A DNA stretch of 64,000 nucleotides. Origin: Nocardioides yefusunii (lineage in GTDB: Bacteria; Actinomycetota; Actinomycetes; Propionibacteriales; Nocardioidaceae). Position 1 is the stretch's first letter. Each line of letters opens with the position of its first letter. The notes beneath the pieces are model-generated. The model had not been told where the DNA came from and searched no databases. It worked only from the letters and a program-made list of their open reading frames with translations. Positions 11,293 through 19,184 of this stretch are shown here, piece after piece. A program made the translations under genes and the position numbers. The stretch is taken from the NCBI RefSeq assembly GCF_004014875.1, contig NZ_CP034929.1:310001-374000 (forward strand), read 5' to 3'.

Positions 11293-11337
11293 CTCAGGAC
11301 TGCTTGCGCAGACTGCGCCTCAGGACTGCTTGCGCAG
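11293..11337. repeat. 19-bp direct repeat at ligase 3' end
   Basis: CTCAGGACTGCTTGCGCAG occurs at 11293-11311 and 11319-11337, separated by ACTGCGC. The right copy is the true end of the ligase gene (LRKQS and stop); the left copy joins the truncated yiaA, so it looks like a recombination scar. Confidence 0.85.
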
Positions 11338-12960
11338 TTCGTGCTTCATGACCTTGCCCGTCGACGTCCGCGGCAGGCCGTCGGCGAAGACGATGTCGCG
11401 CGGCACCTTGTAGCCCGCGATCCACTCCCGGGCGTGCGCGATGATCTCCTCGCGGCTGAGCTCCTTGCCCGGTTCGGTGATCACGAACGCCCGAGGACGC
11501 TCGCCCCACTTCTCGTCCGGAACGCCCACGACGGCGACGTCGGTGATCGACGGGTGACGCAGCAGCGCCTGCTCCACCTCGACGGTCGAGATGTTCTCGC
11601 CGCCGGAGATGACGATGTCCTTGGCGCGGTCGCGCACCTGCAGGTAGCCGTCGGGGTACATGATGCCGAGGTCGCCGGTGTGGAACCAGCCGCCGTGGAA
11701 CGCCTCTGCGGTGGCGGCGTCGTTCTGGAAGTAGCCGAGCATGACGGTGTTGCCACGCACCACGATCTCGCCGATCGTGGCGCCGTCGGCGGGGACGTCG
11801 TTCATGTCGAGGTCGACGACGCGGGCCTGCTGTGCCTGCACCATCCCGACGCCCTGGCGCGAGAGCAGGTCAGCGCGGTCTCCGGCCGGCAGCGTGGGCC
11901 ATCCGTCCTGGTGCTCGCAGACGGTGATCGGGCCGTACGTCTCGGTGAGGCCGTAGACGTGGACGACGTGGACGCCGATCTCCTCCAGCGCAGCGATCAC
12001 GGTGGGGGCCGGGGGAGCGCCAGCGGTGGTGATCCGCAGGCCGCCCTCGATGACATGGGCCTGCTCGGCGCCGGCGATCGTCGTGCAGACCGCAGGGGCG
12101 CCGCACAGGTGCGTGGTGCCGAGGTCGTCGATCGCGTGCCAGATCGCCTCGGCGCGGACCTCGCGCAGACAGATCTGGGTGCCGCCCGCGGCGGTGACCG
12201 CCCACGGGTTCGTCCAGCCGTTGCAGTGGAACGTCGGGAGCGTCCACAGGTAGCGCGTCGCCGGGGTCAGTTCCTGGTGGACGACGTTGCCGAGGGCGGC
12301 CAGGTGGGCGCCGCGGTGGGAGTACATGACGCCCTTGGGAGTGCCTGTGGTGCCGGAGGTGTAGTTGAGCGAGATCACCGCGTCCTCGTCGGCGACCTCC
12401 CACGAGAACCCGCCCTCGGGGAGGACGGCGGCGCCCGTCCAGTCGGCGTACTGGTCGGTGACGGTGCAGCTGCCCGACGGCGCCAGGCCCGACTCGGGGT
12501 CGTTGGCCTCGACGACGCGGACCAGCGACGGGACGTCGTCGCGGATTCCTTCGATGCGCTCGATGAGCTCGGTGTCGACCACCAGCACCGTTGCGCGGCA
12601 GTGGTTCAGGATCGTGGAGATCTCGGGCTTGGTCAGGCGGGTGTTCAGCATGACCAGCACCGCGCCCGAGAGTGGGGCGGCGAAGTGCGCGAAGACGGCC
12701 TCGGGGACGTTCGGCACGAGGAACGCGACGTGTTCGCCGGGTGCGGCGTCGGCAGTCAGGGCTGCGGCCAGACGCTGCGACTCGGCGGCGAACTCGCCGT
12801 AGGTGTAGCTGCGGTCGCCGTGCAGGACAGCGACCTTGTCGGTGAAGACCTCCGCCGAGCGCTCGAGGAAACGCAGCGGGGTCAGTTCGGAACGGTTGGC
12901 ACGGGCGGGACGGACGGGTGCGTCGACCGCCTCCGTGCGCAGGGAGGCTGAGGGGGTCAC
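11320..12960 (-). CDS. fatty acyl-CoA ligase (AMP-forming)
   Basis: ANL-superfamily enzyme of 546 residues that adenylates a carboxylic acid and transfers it to CoA. The AMP-binding loop is YTSGTTGTPKGVMYSHRG, followed by GLTETYGPI, the hinge motif FHTGDLGIMYPDGYLQVRDR, KDIVISGGENIS, and the C-terminal PRTSTGKVMKHELR containing the catalytic lysine. GTG 12960 (MTPSASLRTEAVD) is chosen because GGAGAG sits just upstream. Members of this form act on medium- or long-chain fatty acids; the exact substrate is open. The stop codon lies in a 19-bp repeat. Confidence 0.9.
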   Translation of the reverse strand: MTPSASLRTEAVDAPVRPARANRSELTPLRFLERSAEVFTDKVAVLHGDRSYTYGEFAAESQRLAAALTADAAPGEHVAFLVPNVPEAVFAHFAAPLSGAVLVMLNTRLTKPEISTILNHCRATVLVVDTELIERIEGIRDDVPSLVRVVEANDPESGLAPSGSCTVTDQYADWTGAAVLPEGGFSWEVADEDAVISLNYTSGTTGTPKGVMYSHRGAHLAALGNVVHQELTPATRYLWTLPTFHCNGWTNPWAVTAAGGTQICLREVRAEAIWHAIDDLGTTHLCGAPAVCTTIAGAEQAHVIEGGLRITTAGAPPAPTVIAALEEIGVHVVHVYGLTETYGPITVCEHQDGWPTLPAGDRADLLSRQGVGMVQAQQARVVDLDMNDVPADGATIGEIVVRGNTVMLGYFQNDAATAEAFHGGWFHTGDLGIMYPDGYLQVRDRAKDIVISGGENISTVEVEQALLRHPSITDVAVVGVPDEKWGERPRAFVITEPGKELSREEIIAHAREWIAGYKVPRDIVFADGLPRTSTGKVMKHELRKQS

Positions 12961-13042
12961 GGGGCTCTCCGGGTGTCCTTGCTCCGGTCGGGAGCGGGGC
13001 GTGAGGGAAGCGCCACCGTAAGTCCGGGGCACCCGTTCGGGT

Positions 13043-13079
13043 ACCCCCGATCGGGGGTGAGTGTGGCTCGGGCCACACT
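13043..13079. promoter_or_regulatory. adjacent palindromes upstream of the ligase gene
   Basis: ACCCCCGATCGGGGGT is a perfect 16-bp palindrome at 13043-13058; AGTGTGGC and GCCACACT form a tight hairpin at 13060-13079. They lie between the MFS stop and the ligase start, both minus strand, so one may be a terminator and the other an operator. A third palindrome, CGACGACGCGTCGTCG, is at 13128-13143. Confidence 0.45.
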
Positions 13080-13197
13080 GTCGTCACGGTGGGAAATGAC
13101 CGCGACGCGCCGCCGGCACCGAAGTGCCGACGACGCGTCGTCGAATCAGGTCGCAGGGCTGGCTGCAGCAGTTGCTCCGGCCGGCGCCTGCGGTGGG

Positions 13198-14646
13198 TCA
13201 GGCCTGGCCGGCCTTGCGGGCCGGGATCAGCAGAGCGACGAGCGCACCTGCGAGGGCGGCACCGGCGCCGATGAGGAAGCAGTAGTGGAATGCGTCCTTC
13301 GACGGGATCGAGGTGCCACCGAGGTCCATGGTGACGCCCACGAGGACGGCAGCCATGACGGCGGAGGCGATGGTGGTGCCGACCGAGCGCATGAGGGAGT
13401 TGACGCCGACGCTGGAGCCGGCCTCCTCCATCGGCACGTTGTCGAGGATGAGGGTCGGGAAGGCGGCGTAACCGATGCCGACGCCGGCGGAGGCGATGAT
13501 GACCGAGACCATCAGCTTCCATGCCTCGTCCATCATGAAGGCGCCGAAGAGGTAGCCGCAGGCCACGACGGTGGCGCCGATGGCGAGGGTCAGACGGGCG
13601 CCGATGGCGGTCATCATCTTGGCGCTCAGGGGGGCGAAGATCAGCATCATCATGCCGCCGGGGAACATCCAGAGACCGGCCTCGAGCATGGTCTGGCCCA
13701 GGCCGTAGCCGGTGCGCTCGTCCATCTGCATGAGCTGGGGGACGACGATCGAGGACGCCATCATGCCGAAGCCGATGAGGATCGCGGCAAGGTTGGTGAA
13801 GAGCACCGGGCGGTGGCTCATGGTGCGCAGGTCGACGAGCGGCTCGTCGTGGCGCATCTCGAAGACGCCGAAGATGCCGAGGACGACGACGCCGCCCACG
13901 ATGGCGATCCAGGTGTCGGTGGAGCCCCAGCCCCAGCTGGAGCCCTTGGAGACGCCGACGAGGAACGAGACGAGACCGACGGCGAGCAGGACGACGCCGA
14001 CGACGTCGATGCGGGCCGGGTGGGTGTCCTTGGTGCTCGGGATGACCAGTGCGGTCAGCACGAGCACGATCAGGGCCAGTGCGCTCGAGACGTAGAACAG
14101 TGCGTGCCAGTCGAACGAGTCGGCGATCCATGCGGAGAGCGGGAGGCCGACGGCGCCGCCGACGCCGAGCGTGGCGGAGACGGTCGCGACCGCGGTGCCC
14201 TGCTTCTCCTTGGGTGCGAGCGAGCGCACCGCGGAGATGGCGACGGGGATGTAGCCCATGGCGACACCCTGGAGGGCGCGGCCGACGAGGAATGCGATCA
14301 GGCCGGAGCCGAAGGCGCAGAGCAGGGAGGCGACGAAGAGGATCGCGGAGCTGCCGACGAGGACGCGCTTCTTGCCGTACATGTCGGCGAGGCGGCCGGT
14401 GACGGGCATCGAGACGGCGGCGGCGAGCAGTGTGGCGGTGATCGCCCAGGAGGCGTTGGAGGCCGAGGTGTCGAGCAGCTCGGGCAGCGTCGACTGGATC
14501 GGGATGACCAGCGACTGCATGAGTGCGCCGGCCAGGGAGCCGAAGCAGAGGGTGAGGATGATTGCGGTGGCGCGCTTGTCGCTGATGTTGAGCGCAGCGG
14601 CGCCGCCTGCGGAGCCGGCAGGGGCCGGTGCGGTGGGGGTAGCCAT
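13198..14646 (-). CDS. DHA2-type MFS drug efflux transporter
   Basis: Membrane exporter of 482 residues with about 14 hydrophobic segments, the DHA2 drug:H+ antiporter layout. It starts MATPTAPAPAGSAGG; motif A is seen as GRLADMYGKKRVL and motif C-like glycines as GVGGAVGLPLSAW. ATG 14646 has AGGA upstream. It is divergent from a MarR gene with a symmetric operator between, the usual arrangement for a ligand-induced pump. The substrate is unknown. Confidence 0.9.
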   Translation of the reverse strand: MATPTAPAPAGSAGGAAALNISDKRATAIILTLCFGSLAGALMQSLVIPIQSTLPELLDTSASNASWAITATLLAAAVSMPVTGRLADMYGKKRVLVGSSAILFVASLLCAFGSGLIAFLVGRALQGVAMGYIPVAISAVRSLAPKEKQGTAVATVSATLGVGGAVGLPLSAWIADSFDWHALFYVSSALALIVLVLTALVIPSTKDTHPARIDVVGVVLLAVGLVSFLVGVSKGSSWGWGSTDTWIAIVGGVVVLGIFGVFEMRHDEPLVDLRTMSHRPVLFTNLAAILIGFGMMASSIVVPQLMQMDERTGYGLGQTMLEAGLWMFPGGMMMLIFAPLSAKMMTAIGARLTLAIGATVVACGYLFGAFMMDEAWKLMVSVIIASAGVGIGYAAFPTLILDNVPMEEAGSSVGVNSLMRSVGTTIASAVMAAVLVGVTMDLGGTSIPSKDAFHYCFLIGAGAALAGALVALLIPARKAGQA

Positions 14647-14663
14647 GTGTTCCTGATCTCGTG

Positions 14664-14713
14664 CGTATGTATGTAACCTACATAGTGCTTTATGTGTAGA
14701 GTACATACGTACG
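14664..14713. promoter_or_regulatory. MarR operator between efflux pump and marR
   Basis: Outer arms CGTATGTATGTA and TACATACGTACG (11 of 12 paired) and inner arms CTACATA and TATGTGTAG share one centre near 14688. The AT-rich nested symmetry in a 92-base divergent gap is typical of MarR control of both genes. Confidence 0.8.
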
Positions 14714-14738
14714 TGCGTCGGAAGCAAAGGAACAGCAC

Positions 14739-15236
14739 GTGGCTCTGGTCACCACCTCCGCGACGATCCTCGCCTTCAAGGCTTCGCCCCTGTGGGCGCT
14801 CGTGGTCGGCACGGCTCGCCTCGAGCGTGGCCGCCACGTCGCCGAGGCCGCTTCCCGACTCAACATCGCCGACGTCCGCCTCCTCTGGTTGCTGTGCTCC
14901 GAAGGCGCGCGCACCATGAAGGAGATCTCCGACGCTCTCGGGCTCGAGCAGTCCACCGTCAACCGTCAGGTCAACGCAGCCCTCAAGCACGGGTTCGTCG
15001 AGCGGGTCGAGCCGGACGCGGACGCCGCTGCTGCCGGACGTGCTCGGCTCATCCGCGCCACCGAGGAGGGCGAGCAGGTCTTCGCCCGCGACCTGGAGGC
15101 CGGCATGGACGTCTTCGGCGTCGCGCTGGACGCGATTCCTGCGGACGAACGTGAGCGGTTCATGACGCACTACGCCGCCTTCGCCGAGGCGTACCGCGTC
15201 GAGGCGCTGCGCGCTTCGGCCCGCTTCCGCGGCTGA
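14739..15236 (+). CDS. MarR family transcriptional regulator
   Basis: Winged-helix regulator of 165 residues. The recognition region is TMKEISDALGLEQSTVNRQV followed by a wing with RVEPDADAAAAGRARLIRAT and the terminal dimer helices. GTG 14739 follows AAAGGAACAG. It probably represses itself and the divergent DHA2 pump through the palindromes at 14664-14713, released by a small ligand. Confidence 0.88.
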   Translation: MALVTTSATILAFKASPLWALVVGTARLERGRHVAEAASRLNIADVRLLWLLCSEGARTMKEISDALGLEQSTVNRQVNAALKHGFVERVEPDADAAAAGRARLIRATEEGEQVFARDLEAGMDVFGVALDAIPADERERFMTHYAAFAEAYRVEALRASARFRG

Positions 15237-15647: not shown

Positions 15648-18600
15648 TCAGAGGTCGAACAGCGACGCGACCGAGTTGATGTCGACGTCGGTGCGGGGCT
15701 GGTGGGCCTCGCCGCTGACCTTGACGTCGGCCGCGGGAGCGACCGGTGCCACGGGGGCGGGTGCTGCCGGAGCCTCGACGACCGGAGCCTCGACGACCGG
15801 GGCCTCGACGACCGGGGCCGGAGCAGCCTCGGCGACGGGGGCGGGTGCTGCCGGAGCCTCGACGACCGGAGCTGCGGAGGCCTCGCTGGCGGCGACGGGC
15901 TCGGCGACCTTGACGGTCTCCGGGGCCTCGATGTCGAACAGCGACGCGGCGGCGGTGATGTCGACGTCGGTGCGCGGGGTGCTCGCCAGATCGTTGGAAC
16001 CGGGCAGAGCGATCGACGCAGCAGCGACCGGTGCGGCAGCCTCGGGAGTCGTCGCCACCGGAGCGGCCTCGACGACCGGGGCCGGGGCCTCCGCCACGGG
16101 GGCGGGGGTCTCGACGACCTGAGCCGGAGCAGCGGCAACCGGAGCAGCAACCGGAGCGGCAGCGGCGGGCGCGGCAGCGCTGGCGGCGACGGGCTCGGCG
16201 ACCTGGACGGTCTCCGGGGCCTCGATGTCGAAGAGCGATGCGGCGGCGGTGATGTCGACGTCGGTGCGCGGGGTGCTGGCCAGGCCGTTGGATCCGGCGT
16301 TGCCCGAGGCGGCTGCGGCGGGGGCACCTGCGGCGGCCGGGGCAGCCGGAGCAGCCTCAGCCGGAGCGGCCGCAGCCTCAGCCACCGGAGCCGGAGCCTC
16401 GGCCACGGGGGCCGGGGTGGCGGCCGGAGCAGCAGCAACCGGAGCGGCGGTCGGGGCGGTCGGGACGGTGCCCGGGGCCACCTCGACGGCACCCTCGGGA
16501 GCCTCGATGTCGAAGAGCGAGGCGACGGCGGTGATGTCGACGTCGGTGCGCGGGACGCTGGCGGCACCGCTCACTGCGGCAGCCGGCGCAGCCGGAGCGG
16601 CGGGCTCGACCGGAGCAGGCGCGGCGGCAGCCGGCGCAGGCTCAGTCGGAGCGACGTCGAACAGCGAACCGGCACCCAGGTCGGCAGCCGGAGCGGCCGG
16701 GGCCGCGGGCTCGACCGGAGCAGCAGGAGCTGCGGGGGTGTCGAAGAGCGAACCGCCCTCGTCGAAGAGCGAACCACCAGCGGCCGGGGCAGCCGGCTCG
16801 GCCGGGGCCGGGGTGTCGAACAGCGACGAGGCGTCGTCCGGAGCCGGGGTGTCGAAGAGCGATCCAGCGGCAGCGGCAGGTGCGGCAGCAGCCGGGGTCT
16901 CGGCCGGAGCAGCGGGCGCTGCGGGAGCAGCAGCCTTGGCGGCGGGCTTGGCAGTGGCGTCCTCGGAGGTCTGTCCCGGAGCGAGCTTGGTGGCCTGCTC
17001 ACCCTTGACCGACGCGAGCAGCATCTGTGCGACGTCGAGGACCTCGACGGCCTCGGCAGCCTTGCCGTTGGCCTGCTCGGAGGTCAGGCCGTCGGCCAGC
17101 ATCACGCGGCAGAAGGGGCAACCCACGGCGATCTGGTCGGCGCCGGTGGCCACGGCCTCCTGGGTGCGGTTGACGTTGATGCGCGAACCGAGGGTCTCCT
17201 CCATCCACATGCGGGCACCACCGGCGCCACAGCAGAAGGACTTCTCGTTGCTGCGCTCCATCTCGACGTACTCGGCACCGGGAAGGATCTCGAGCAGCTC
17301 GCGGGGAGCCTTGTACTCCTGGTTGTGACGGCCCAGGTAGCACGGGTCGTGGTAGGTGATCGAGCGCTTGGCAGCACCGGCGCCGGTCGGGACCGGGGTC
17401 AGCTTGCCCTCGCGGACGAGACGGTTGAGGAGCTGGGTGTGGTGCACGACCTCGAGCTCGATGCCGAAGTCCTTGTACTCGTTCTTGAGCGTGTTGAAGC
17501 AGTGGGCACAGGTCGAGACGACCTTCTTGACCTTGAACTCCTTGAACGTCTCGACGTTCTGCGCGGCGAGCTGCTGGAAGAGCATCTCGTTGCCGGCGCG
17601 GCGGGCGGAGTCGCCGGTGCAGGTCTCGCCGTTGCCCAGGACACCGAAGCTGATGCCGGCGATGTCGAGGAGCTCTGCGACCGCACGAGTGGTCTTCTTG
17701 GCGCGGTCCTCGTAGGCACCGGCGCAGCCGACCCAGAACAGCCAGTCGACCTCGTCGAGGGACTCGATGGTCTCGCCCACGACCTTGACCTCGAAGTCGA
17801 GGTCCTTGGCCCAGTCCATGCGCGCGTTCGGCGACATGTTCCAGGGGTTGCCCTTGCCCTCCAGGCCCTTGAAGAGCTGGTTGAGCTCGGCGGGGAAGTT
17901 GGACTCCACCAGCATCTGGTAGCGACGCATGTCCATGATGTGGTCGACGTGCTCGATGTCGACGGGGCACTGCTGGACACAGGCGCCACAGGAGGTGCAG
18001 GACCAGAGGACGTCCTCGTCGATGACGAAGTCGCCGCCCTCGGGGTTGTAGAACCAGTCGATGACCTCGGTGGTCTCGCCGACGGCCGCCTCGGCGTCGG
18101 TCTTGCCGATGAGGGAGCGCTCGCCGGCGGTGCCGTCGGCCTTGGCGTAGGCGTGCTCGCGCAGGCCCATCATCAGGAGCTTGGGGGAGAGGGGCTTCTC
18201 GGTGTTCCAGGCGGGGCACTGCGACTGGCAGCGGCCACACTCGGTGCACGAGGTGAAGTCGAGGATGCCCTTCCAGGAGAAGTCCTCGATCTTGCCGACA
18301 CCGAGGACGAGCTCCTCGTCGTCGTCATCGTCCATGTTCTCGAGCATCTCGAGGGTGAACGGCTCGCCCTTGACCATCATCGGGCGGATCGCGCCGAGGG
18401 CGGTCGAACCGTCGTCCTCGCGCTTGAACCAGATGTTGACCCAAGCGGTGAAGCGGTGCCAGGCGACACCCATCGTCAGGTTGTTGCTGATCATCAGCAG
18501 CCAGATCATCGCGGAGACGATCTTGAGCATGGCGATCGTGTAGATGATGTTCTCGAGCGTGCCGACGCTCTCGACGCCGGTGGGCCAGAGGTTGCCGAAG

Positions 18601-19184
18601 AACTGCGAGATCGGGAACTCCGAGCCGGTTGCGTCACCGGGGTGCTCGGCGTTGATCAGGTTGTACTCGGCGCCACGGATGAAGAGGATCGCCGACGACT
18701 CCAGCAGCACCATCGCCTCGACGAAGTAGGCCTGCCACATCGTCGAGCCGAAGAAGCGCGAGCCGCGGCCCTTGGCCGAGGGACGGTTCCGGATGCGGTA
18801 GACGATCAGTGGGATGATCGCGATCGTGCCCAGCAGGCCGAGGAACTCTGCCACCCACGTGTACAGCGGCCAGTGTCCGATGATCGGGAGCGCCGCGTGT
18901 GCGTCGAAGAGCTGCGGGAACGCTCCCATGACGGCGGTCGACAGCACGATGAACGCGGCGAACGCGAACCAGTGCAGGATGCCGACCCAGGTCCACTGGA
19001 GCATCCGGGTGTGGACCACCGTCTCCTTGAACATGGTCAGGGTGCGGCCCACCGGGTTTCCGGTGCGGCCGACGACGGAGGTGCCCTGGCGCAGGACGCC
19101 GAGCATCTTCCTGACGGCCACGACGGTGAAACCGATGGCGACCACCGAGATGGCCAATGAGACGACGATCGCAAAGATCTGCAT
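15648..19184 (-). CDS. etfD: EtfD-type membrane ETF:menaquinone oxidoreductase with long SLFD-repeat tail
   Basis: Membrane iron-sulfur protein of 1178 residues that should carry electrons from ETF, reduced by acyl-CoA dehydrogenases, to menaquinone. Order: about six membrane helices (4-285); two 4Fe-4S motifs, CTECGRCQSQCP near 310 and CTSCGACVQQCP near 395; then two CCG domains, with CAGAYEDRAKK, CAHCF, DPCYLGRHNQ, FCCGAGGARMW (about 653) and GCPFCRVML. This is the layout of mycobacterial Rv0338c. From about 728 to the end is an Ala/Pro-rich tail with nine SLFD motifs, four of them inside PRTDVDI-type repeats. ATG 19184. A palindrome shared with fadE5 lies 88 bases upstream. Confidence 0.9.
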   Translation of the reverse strand: MQIFAIVVSLAISVVAIGFTVVAVRKMLGVLRQGTSVVGRTGNPVGRTLTMFKETVVHTRMLQWTWVGILHWFAFAAFIVLSTAVMGAFPQLFDAHAALPIIGHWPLYTWVAEFLGLLGTIAIIPLIVYRIRNRPSAKGRGSRFFGSTMWQAYFVEAMVLLESSAILFIRGAEYNLINAEHPGDATGSEFPISQFFGNLWPTGVESVGTLENIIYTIAMLKIVSAMIWLLMISNNLTMGVAWHRFTAWVNIWFKREDDGSTALGAIRPMMVKGEPFTLEMLENMDDDDDEELVLGVGKIEDFSWKGILDFTSCTECGRCQSQCPAWNTEKPLSPKLLMMGLREHAYAKADGTAGERSLIGKTDAEAAVGETTEVIDWFYNPEGGDFVIDEDVLWSCTSCGACVQQCPVDIEHVDHIMDMRRYQMLVESNFPAELNQLFKGLEGKGNPWNMSPNARMDWAKDLDFEVKVVGETIESLDEVDWLFWVGCAGAYEDRAKKTTRAVAELLDIAGISFGVLGNGETCTGDSARRAGNEMLFQQLAAQNVETFKEFKVKKVVSTCAHCFNTLKNEYKDFGIELEVVHHTQLLNRLVREGKLTPVPTGAGAAKRSITYHDPCYLGRHNQEYKAPRELLEILPGAEYVEMERSNEKSFCCGAGGARMWMEETLGSRINVNRTQEAVATGADQIAVGCPFCRVMLADGLTSEQANGKAAEAVEVLDVAQMLLASVKGEQATKLAPGQTSEDATAKPAAKAAAPAAPAAPAETPAAAAPAAAAGSLFDTPAPDDASSLFDTPAPAEPAAPAAGGSLFDEGGSLFDTPAAPAAPVEPAAPAAPAADLGAGSLFDVAPTEPAPAAAAPAPVEPAAPAAPAAAVSGAASVPRTDVDITAVASLFDIEAPEGAVEVAPGTVPTAPTAAPVAAAPAATPAPVAEAPAPVAEAAAAPAEAAPAAPAAAGAPAAAASGNAGSNGLASTPRTDVDITAAASLFDIEAPETVQVAEPVAASAAAPAAAAPVAAPVAAAPAQVVETPAPVAEAPAPVVEAAPVATTPEAAAPVAAASIALPGSNDLASTPRTDVDITAAASLFDIEAPETVKVAEPVAASEASAAPVVEAPAAPAPVAEAAPAPVVEAPVVEAPVVEAPAAPAPVAPVAPAADVKVSGEAHQPRTDVDINSVASLFDL
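15650..16985 (-). repeat. coding repeats in the EtfD tail
   Basis: The DNA encodes four copies of a PRTDVDI(T/N)xxASLFD unit, at about 15650-15695, 15930-15975, 16220-16270 and 16510-16560, and five shorter GSLFD/SSLFD units between 16650 and 16870, joined by Ala/Pro/Val linkers. Neighbouring long units are almost identical in DNA, so they arose by recent duplication. Confidence 0.85.

Follow-up and report, generated by a model that had tools for sequence, protein, structure and literature searches.

The etfD gene of Nocardioides yefusunii, located in a window of 64,000 nucleotides (the whole stretch of DNA that was analysed, positions 310,001 to 374,000 of contig NZ_CP034929.1), raises the question why a predicted respiratory membrane enzyme should carry behind its folded core a tail of several hundred residues in which the four-letter word SLFD returns again and again. 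The original prediction proposed that such regularly repeated motifs on a flexible chain dock a soluble partner, for example ETF or acyl-CoA dehydrogenases, to the membrane protein. Multivalent docking is the best-supported class of explanation for the SLFD tail, and as its specific form we favour, at a probability of roughly one in two, a multivalent, membrane-tethered arm that captures ETF.

The identity of the protein has been derived from its core. A phmmer search against solved structures has returned the EtfD of M. smegmatis (9ojn) with an E-value of 6e-197, and Foldseek has matched the AlphaFold2 model to the same structure with an E-value of 3e-47, a TM-score of 0.84 over the target and 46% identity in an alignment spanning 757 columns. 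Read from the model only, the N-terminal multi-helix membrane domain comprises long helices at residues 2–32, 61–93, 106–132, 149–180 and 204–234, and the last long helix of the protein covers residues 718–727. By this predicted core fold, the Fer4 dicluster and the two CCG domains (Table 1), the window protein is assigned as EtfD. It is the only EtfD match in its genome, which also holds one ETF alpha gene with an EtfB reading frame adjoining. Beside etfD, translations read by eye (window 11320–15236) resemble an AMP-dependent acyl-CoA ligase, an MFS-type transporter and a MarR-type regulator.

Table 1. Positions in the window of etfD, its domains, the SLFD motifs of its tail and the DNA repeat units.
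Feature	Position	Strand	Basis
etfD, predicted ETF:(mena)quinone oxidoreductase, 1178 aa	15648..19184, incl. stop codon	minus	ORF, CCG/Fer4 domains, AF2 match to 9ojn
EtfD folded core, residues 1–722 (membrane helices, two 4Fe-4S motifs, two CCG domains)	17019..19184	minus	AF2, Pfam
4Fe-4S dicluster region, residues 311–410	17955..18254	minus	Pfam Fer4_8 and others
Best CCG stretch, residues 609–696	17097..17360	minus	Pfam PF02754, 2 stretches, E 2.1e-36
Disordered Ala/Pro/acidic tail, residues 723–1178, 456 residues, net charge −44	15651..17018	minus	pLDDT, composition, charge
SLFD 1 (starts at residue 775)	16851..16862	minus	
SLFD 2 (787)	16815..16826	minus	
SLFD 3 (805)	16761..16772	minus	
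SLFD 4 (812)	16740..16751	minus	
SLFD 5 (840)	16656..16667	minus	
SLFD 6 (889), within VPRTDVDITAVASLFDI	16509..16520	minus	
SLFD 7 (983), within TPRTDVDITAAASLFDI	16227..16238	minus	
SLFD 8 (1081), within TPRTDVDITAAASLFDI	15933..15944	minus	
SLFD 9 (1174), C-terminal QPRTDVDINSVASLFDL	15654..15665	minus	
DNA repeat unit around SLFD 8, reference copy	15879..16003	minus	family D4
DNA repeat unit around SLFD 7, 93% to reference over 125 nt, recent duplication	16173..16297	minus	family D4
DNA repeat unit around SLFD 6, 67% to reference, older	16455..16579	minus	family D4

The long Ala/Pro-rich tail that had been described after the second CCG domain is present, with a length of 456 residues and nine SLFD copies, and the four copies said to lie inside PRTDVDI(T/N)xxASLFD units are the last four (SLFD 6 to 9), each continuing with I or L. 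The tail consists mainly of Ala (160), Pro (74), Val (46), Glu (31), Thr, Ser and Asp; its only aromatic residues are nine Phe, all inside SLFD, and it holds neither Trp nor Tyr. Shuffling the tail 100,000 times has yielded 0.00093 SLFD on average and never more than 1, versus the nine observed. All nine motifs encode their serine by TCG and their leucine by CTC or CTG. In structure prediction, a first full-length AlphaFold2 run with 101 close rows reached a mean pLDDT of 60.7 and modelled the core poorly; a second run with 121 more diverse rows reached 69.7 with a well-modelled core, placing 691 residues at a pLDDT of at least 70, nearly all of them in the core, and leaving residues 751–1178 below 50 nearly throughout.

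Regarding the DNA beneath the tail, the view that its repeats are recent duplications applies to one pair of units, those around SLFD 7 and SLFD 8 (93%), but not to any other pair (63–71%); the C-terminal unit around SLFD 9 shares 63–71% identity with the units around SLFD 6, 7 and 8 (families D4 and D5). Among 130 Nocardioides-type proteins, the number of DVDI-SLFD units per protein is none in 5, one in 51, two in 34, three in 38 and four in 2, with the four units of the window protein standing at the top of this range.

The conservation of the motif has been followed in the best 120 proteins listed by a homologue search, the window protein included, which are mostly from Nocardioides where named. 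Eighteen lacking the motif at the C-terminus, some labelled partial and others frame-shifted in appearance, were left out before counting, and four of these hold 0–2 SLFD. All of the 102 intact homologues carry 4–11 SLFD (median 8) in tails of 164–622 residues, and their C-termini read SLFDL in 100 cases, SLFDF in one and SRFDL in one. In a set of 130 proteins ending in SLFDL, which includes extra rows from a further homologue search, 1027 of the 1086 motifs are exact and 59 are one-letter variants (SMFD 34, SLFG 15, others), and none of the cores contains SLFD. The linkers between the copies show little consensus across homologues, the spacing of the motifs varies widely (quartiles of 17, 35 and 62 residues in 100 proteins), and the two residues preceding SLFD (positions −2 and −1) are in most cases G, A or S. 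Exact words amid drifting linkers and spacing are the pattern of selection acting on short linear motifs and, as judged from sequence comparison, SLFD is under strong selection. Codon-pattern scans for the repeated word of the respective tail, which fix some codons and so miss other codings, and in which clustering was judged by eye, have placed 9 of 16 matches of the own genome in etfD (reversed control pattern 3), 12 of 51 matches in the Janibacter-type genome G178 (reversed control 64) and 5 of 16 in G081 (reversed control 10). As the count in G178 does not exceed that of the reversed control, the evidence lies in the clustering within etfD and not in the number of matches.

An EtfD match has been found in 179 of 197 genomes of the class, and the tails were read at 50 loci. 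SLFD is present in 12 of 12 same-genus genomes among these loci, the own genome included; three genomes from other genera of the same family have long acidic tails without SLFD, and two named Aeromicrobium loci are alike. The suggested comparison across the Nocardioidaceae accordingly divides: within Nocardioides copy number and terminal SLFDL are kept in the intact homologues, whereas outside the genus (Aeromicrobium, other families) tails lack SLFD, many of them bearing a different repeated word instead. Seven loci of one family carry basic KGLG/GFGM..K(R/A)PG words that reach the C-terminus and no SLFD, and because these words match M. smegmatis EtfD the family has been taken for Mycobacteriaceae. 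For the mycobacterial EtfD repeats, Szekely 2020 has been cited. The mycobacterial protein (Rv0338c/MSMEG_0690; 9ojn) shares the core fold, the domain order and a disordered C-terminus of comparable length with interspersed repeats, for which a structural report has proposed an ETF contact (PMC13083937). In M. smegmatis the repeats are basic KGLG..GAKRPG-type words, whereas the window tail is built from an exact acidic-aromatic word with a fixed C-terminal copy, is strongly negative (−44) and contains no GLG[LIM]. The same report treats FadF of Bacillus and DgcB of Pseudomonas as EtfD homologues and suggested ETF electron acceptors, which have a short or absent disordered C-terminus and do not have the cluster D1 cysteines (PMC13083937).

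A further type of tail has been found with a Janibacter-type EtfD as query. Among the 120 proteins listed, 61 have tails with at least three words of Trp and an acid; Trp is followed by Asp or Glu in 532 of 537 cases, and 49 of the other listed matches have tails under 60 residues, 10 being partial, frame-shifted or otherwise long. Like the window tail, these Intrasporangiaceae tails (Janibacter, Phycicoccus, Knoellia, Oryzobacter and others) are long and acidic, carry 3–14 aromatic-acid words and end in the word in 53 of 61 proteins, with Trp in place of the Phe of SLFD. Mostly one word is used per protein, namely PSWE in Janibacter, DPWD in Phycicoccus, Knoellia and Oryzobacter, and PAWD or MSWE in a few. 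One Janibacter-type tail (L039) is a very regular array of a dozen PSWE words, several spaced by 96 or 42 nt. In the Propionibacteriaceae, Enemella (L127) has basic SPIERAK-type words and Granulicoccus (L123) SYGE/DYG words. Streptomycetaceae account for 27 of 80 named loci, with 24 short tails, 2 SLFD tails and 1 other long tail. Many relatives have no long tail, including members of families with tailed EtfD, and docking is therefore not essential for the chemistry of EtfD.

The history of the tails has been traced on a rough FastTree tree, in which some long branches meet, of 172 cores from 108 loci and 64 proteins hand-picked from 298; it leaves out 21 near-duplicate loci of L140–L163 (mostly Streptomycetaceae, with one Nocardioides and one Planosporangium) and L042 (G081), whose core is short. 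SLFD requires 2 changes on this tree, Trp words against the rest 3, and the presence of a long tail against none 12. Within the Intrasporangiaceae the words switch among near relatives, with 5 changes among Trp words. Aeromicrobium and Solicola fall between two Nocardioides groups in this EtfD tree, which need not equal the species tree.

A natural transplantation of the motif is found in Streptomyces. Ten Streptomyces EtfD proteins (P0241–P0250), of which P0241 is the S. ureilyticus protein and the others are at least 90% identical to it, form together with the loci L130 and L131 a clade inside Nocardioides (FastTree support 100), which joins P0089, whose only source is JGI, with support 91. 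The ten proteins contain 11, 9, 10, 6, 6, 3, 10, 10, 4 and 8 SLFD, respectively, and in each of them a single residue follows a terminal GLFD. By its position in the tree, the SLFD-tailed EtfD is a transfer into Streptomyces from a Nocardioides-like donor, with 3–11 copies kept. Both L130 (1–5997) and L131 (3–5604) show the gene order GcvT-type protein, EtfB, EtfA, EtfD (Pfam domains checked in L130); beyond it, on the other strand of L130, lie a GntR/FCD regulator and an OpuAC betaine-binding protein. These neighbours suggest that the cluster may serve betaine or dimethylglycine breakdown. An MTHFR gene considered as a neighbour in L131 gave no Pfam match and was dropped. The genomes of L130 and L131 each encode another EtfD as well, whose tail measures 26 or 30 residues and lacks SLFD. 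Since the SLFD-tailed EtfD accompanies an ETF in its new setting, ETF is favoured over a beta-oxidation enzyme as the partner. The ETF beside it is very divergent from the canonical Nocardioides ETF, and one motif would therefore have to fit two divergent ETFs. That one SLFD motif serves two such ETFs is possible, given the Nocardioides genomes G198, G199 and G211 (L189, L190 and L191), which each combine one full-length EtfD with a second, betaine-type ETF that has no EtfD next to it in the stretch read.

Published data on mycobacteria point in the same direction. EtfD co-immunoprecipitates EtfB in M. tuberculosis (PMC8593149). In the structural report, purified mycobacterial EtfD lacked ETF, for which two explanations are given, weak binding being one; the 2026 structure contains neither ETF nor the tail, and an AlphaFold3 model suggests a contact between EtfD and ETF through the disordered region (PMC13083937). 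Within ETF itself, the EtfB word DEDGSGA occurs in 18 of 18 and the EtfA word LPA in 17 of 18 Nocardioides, both being found in 0 of 5 Aeromicrobium; DEDGSGA is also present in the tailless Kribbella and LPA in Granulicoccus and Enemella. Both are confounded with ancestry and, being shared in part by tailless or other-tail lineages, do not form a clean co-variation signal. The net charge of EtfA is −13 to −16 in 7 of 7 genomes with basic tails (six mycobacteria-like genomes and Enemella), −3 to −9 in 18 canonical SLFD genomes, −10 in both Streptomyces beside the SLFD-tailed EtfD, −6 to −15 in four canonical Streptomyces and −3 to −12 in tailless genomes; in this comparison, the net charge of ETF gives at most a hint and does not separate the tail types. 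Taking the mycobacterial data and the transfer into Streptomyces beside EtfB and EtfA together, ETF would be the most likely soluble partner of the tail.

The conservation of the motif is, however, silent on the identity of its partner, and it is conceivable, if on balance unlikely, that the repeats dock a soluble protein other than ETF, such as an acyl-CoA dehydrogenase, an enzyme of the beta-oxidation or betaine pathway or a component of the respiratory chain, with EtfD acting as a metabolon scaffold. The Streptomyces copies adjoin a GcvT-domain enzyme as well as ETF, the motif has been kept although the adjoining ETF is divergent, and the co-immunoprecipitation mentioned above gave 49 matches of which 8 are cytoplasmic (PMC8593149). 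Yet an enzyme specific for beta-oxidation would be unexpected beside a betaine-type copy, ETF probably being what both settings have in common, and no result of the analysis speaks for acyl-CoA dehydrogenases. In the own genome, moreover, the codon patterns used reveal an SLFD cluster outside etfD only in RNase HI, with its two copies.

An improbable reading dispenses with a specific pocket and treats the aromatics as stickers on an acidic disordered chain, which would drive condensates or clusters of EtfD. That 857 of the 966 aromatics in Nocardioides-type tails lie inside the motif would agree with it, as would the near-invariant pairing of Trp with an acid in the 61 Intrasporangiaceae-type tails and the wide variation in spacing. 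A generic sticker needs the aromatic only, whereas S, L and D vary about as little as F and the terminal SLFDL is nearly invariant; the acidity of the tails (median about −15 per 100 residues) would also disfavour self-association.

Still less probable is that the motif folds back to latch or gate the electron entry site of the EtfD core. The fixed C-terminal place of the last motif would suit such a latch, and the region 1074–1087 around SLFD 8 reaches a pLDDT of about 50–53, but none of the motifs gains confidence for docking on the core in the two AlphaFold2 monomer runs, as read from pLDDT and secondary structure only, and 4–11 copies exceed what a latch needs. That the tail is low-complexity sequence made by slippage, with no selected function, has very little to recommend it: tandem GC-rich repeats, the one recent duplication and the many changes between long and short tails on the tree would all fit, but an exact motif has been conserved amid drifting linkers and after transfer to Streptomyces.

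Sliding-clamp binders have the consensus QL[SD]LF, and RNase HI of the own genome (L005 958–1995; C1:619076–620113) has two tandem ASLFDAVP copies in a linker before a further C-terminal region. RNase HI has been dropped as a general second bearer of SLFD, as SLFD is missing, in every frame, from all 15 further Nocardioides RNase H loci, six of which match at 68–70% identity and the rest at 37–41%. A clamp-binding or other general hub motif shared with RNase HI is scarcely credible for EtfD, since the two RNase HI copies that suggest it have no counterpart in these loci, the Gln of the clamp consensus is absent, the two positions ahead of SLFD being mostly G, A or S, and a respiratory enzyme has no obvious use for a clamp site.

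The arm for ETF capture may be pictured as follows. The SLFD copies would all dock weakly into one and the same pocket of the soluble partner, most likely EtfAB, and many weak sites would concentrate reduced ETF near the electron entry clusters of EtfD. ETF could be passed from copy to copy and let go after electron transfer, so that a mobile carrier, which also visits many dehydrogenases, would be kept at the membrane without tight binding. Carboxysomal CsoS2, which binds Rubisco, and eukaryotic epsin, whose DPW repeats bind AP2, work in a comparable way, many weak short peptides on a flexible chain recruiting a soluble partner, in epsin even by DPW; the likeness is one of operation only, and no homology is claimed. 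Related lineages keep the arrangement with the whole array swapped for another word (PSWE, DPWD, PAWD, MSWE or the basic KRPG-type words of mycobacteria), and replacement of whole arrays fits an array that tracks changes in the groove of its partner.

A more far-reaching version, in our view doubtful, is that EtfD tails form a rapidly rewritten docking code with one word per lineage (SLFD, PSWE, DPWD, PAWD, MSWE, SYGE, KRPG-type), in which the copies are switched together, the word follows ETF, and ETF and EtfD are matched in pairs; two pairs in one cell, such as the SLFD-tailed betaine-type EtfD and the tailless EtfD of Streptomyces, would in this way be kept apart.

A disordered repeat tail on mycobacterial EtfD with possible ETF contact has already been published (PMC13083937). 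SLFD in EtfD, the exchange of words between lineages, mostly with a final copy at the C-terminus, and the transfer together with ETF into Streptomyces have not been found in the PMC open literature, with SLFD as the one word searched by name. SLFDL, conserved over the genus and surviving gene transfer, makes the encounter of ETF and EtfD in actinobacteria a question of peptide binding. If the capture of ETF by the tail is true, EtfD would clearly exemplify, for bacteria, a respiratory enzyme that uses a multivalent disordered arm, and the rewritten motifs of its relatives would form a natural series in which the joint change of linear motifs and their grooves can be studied.
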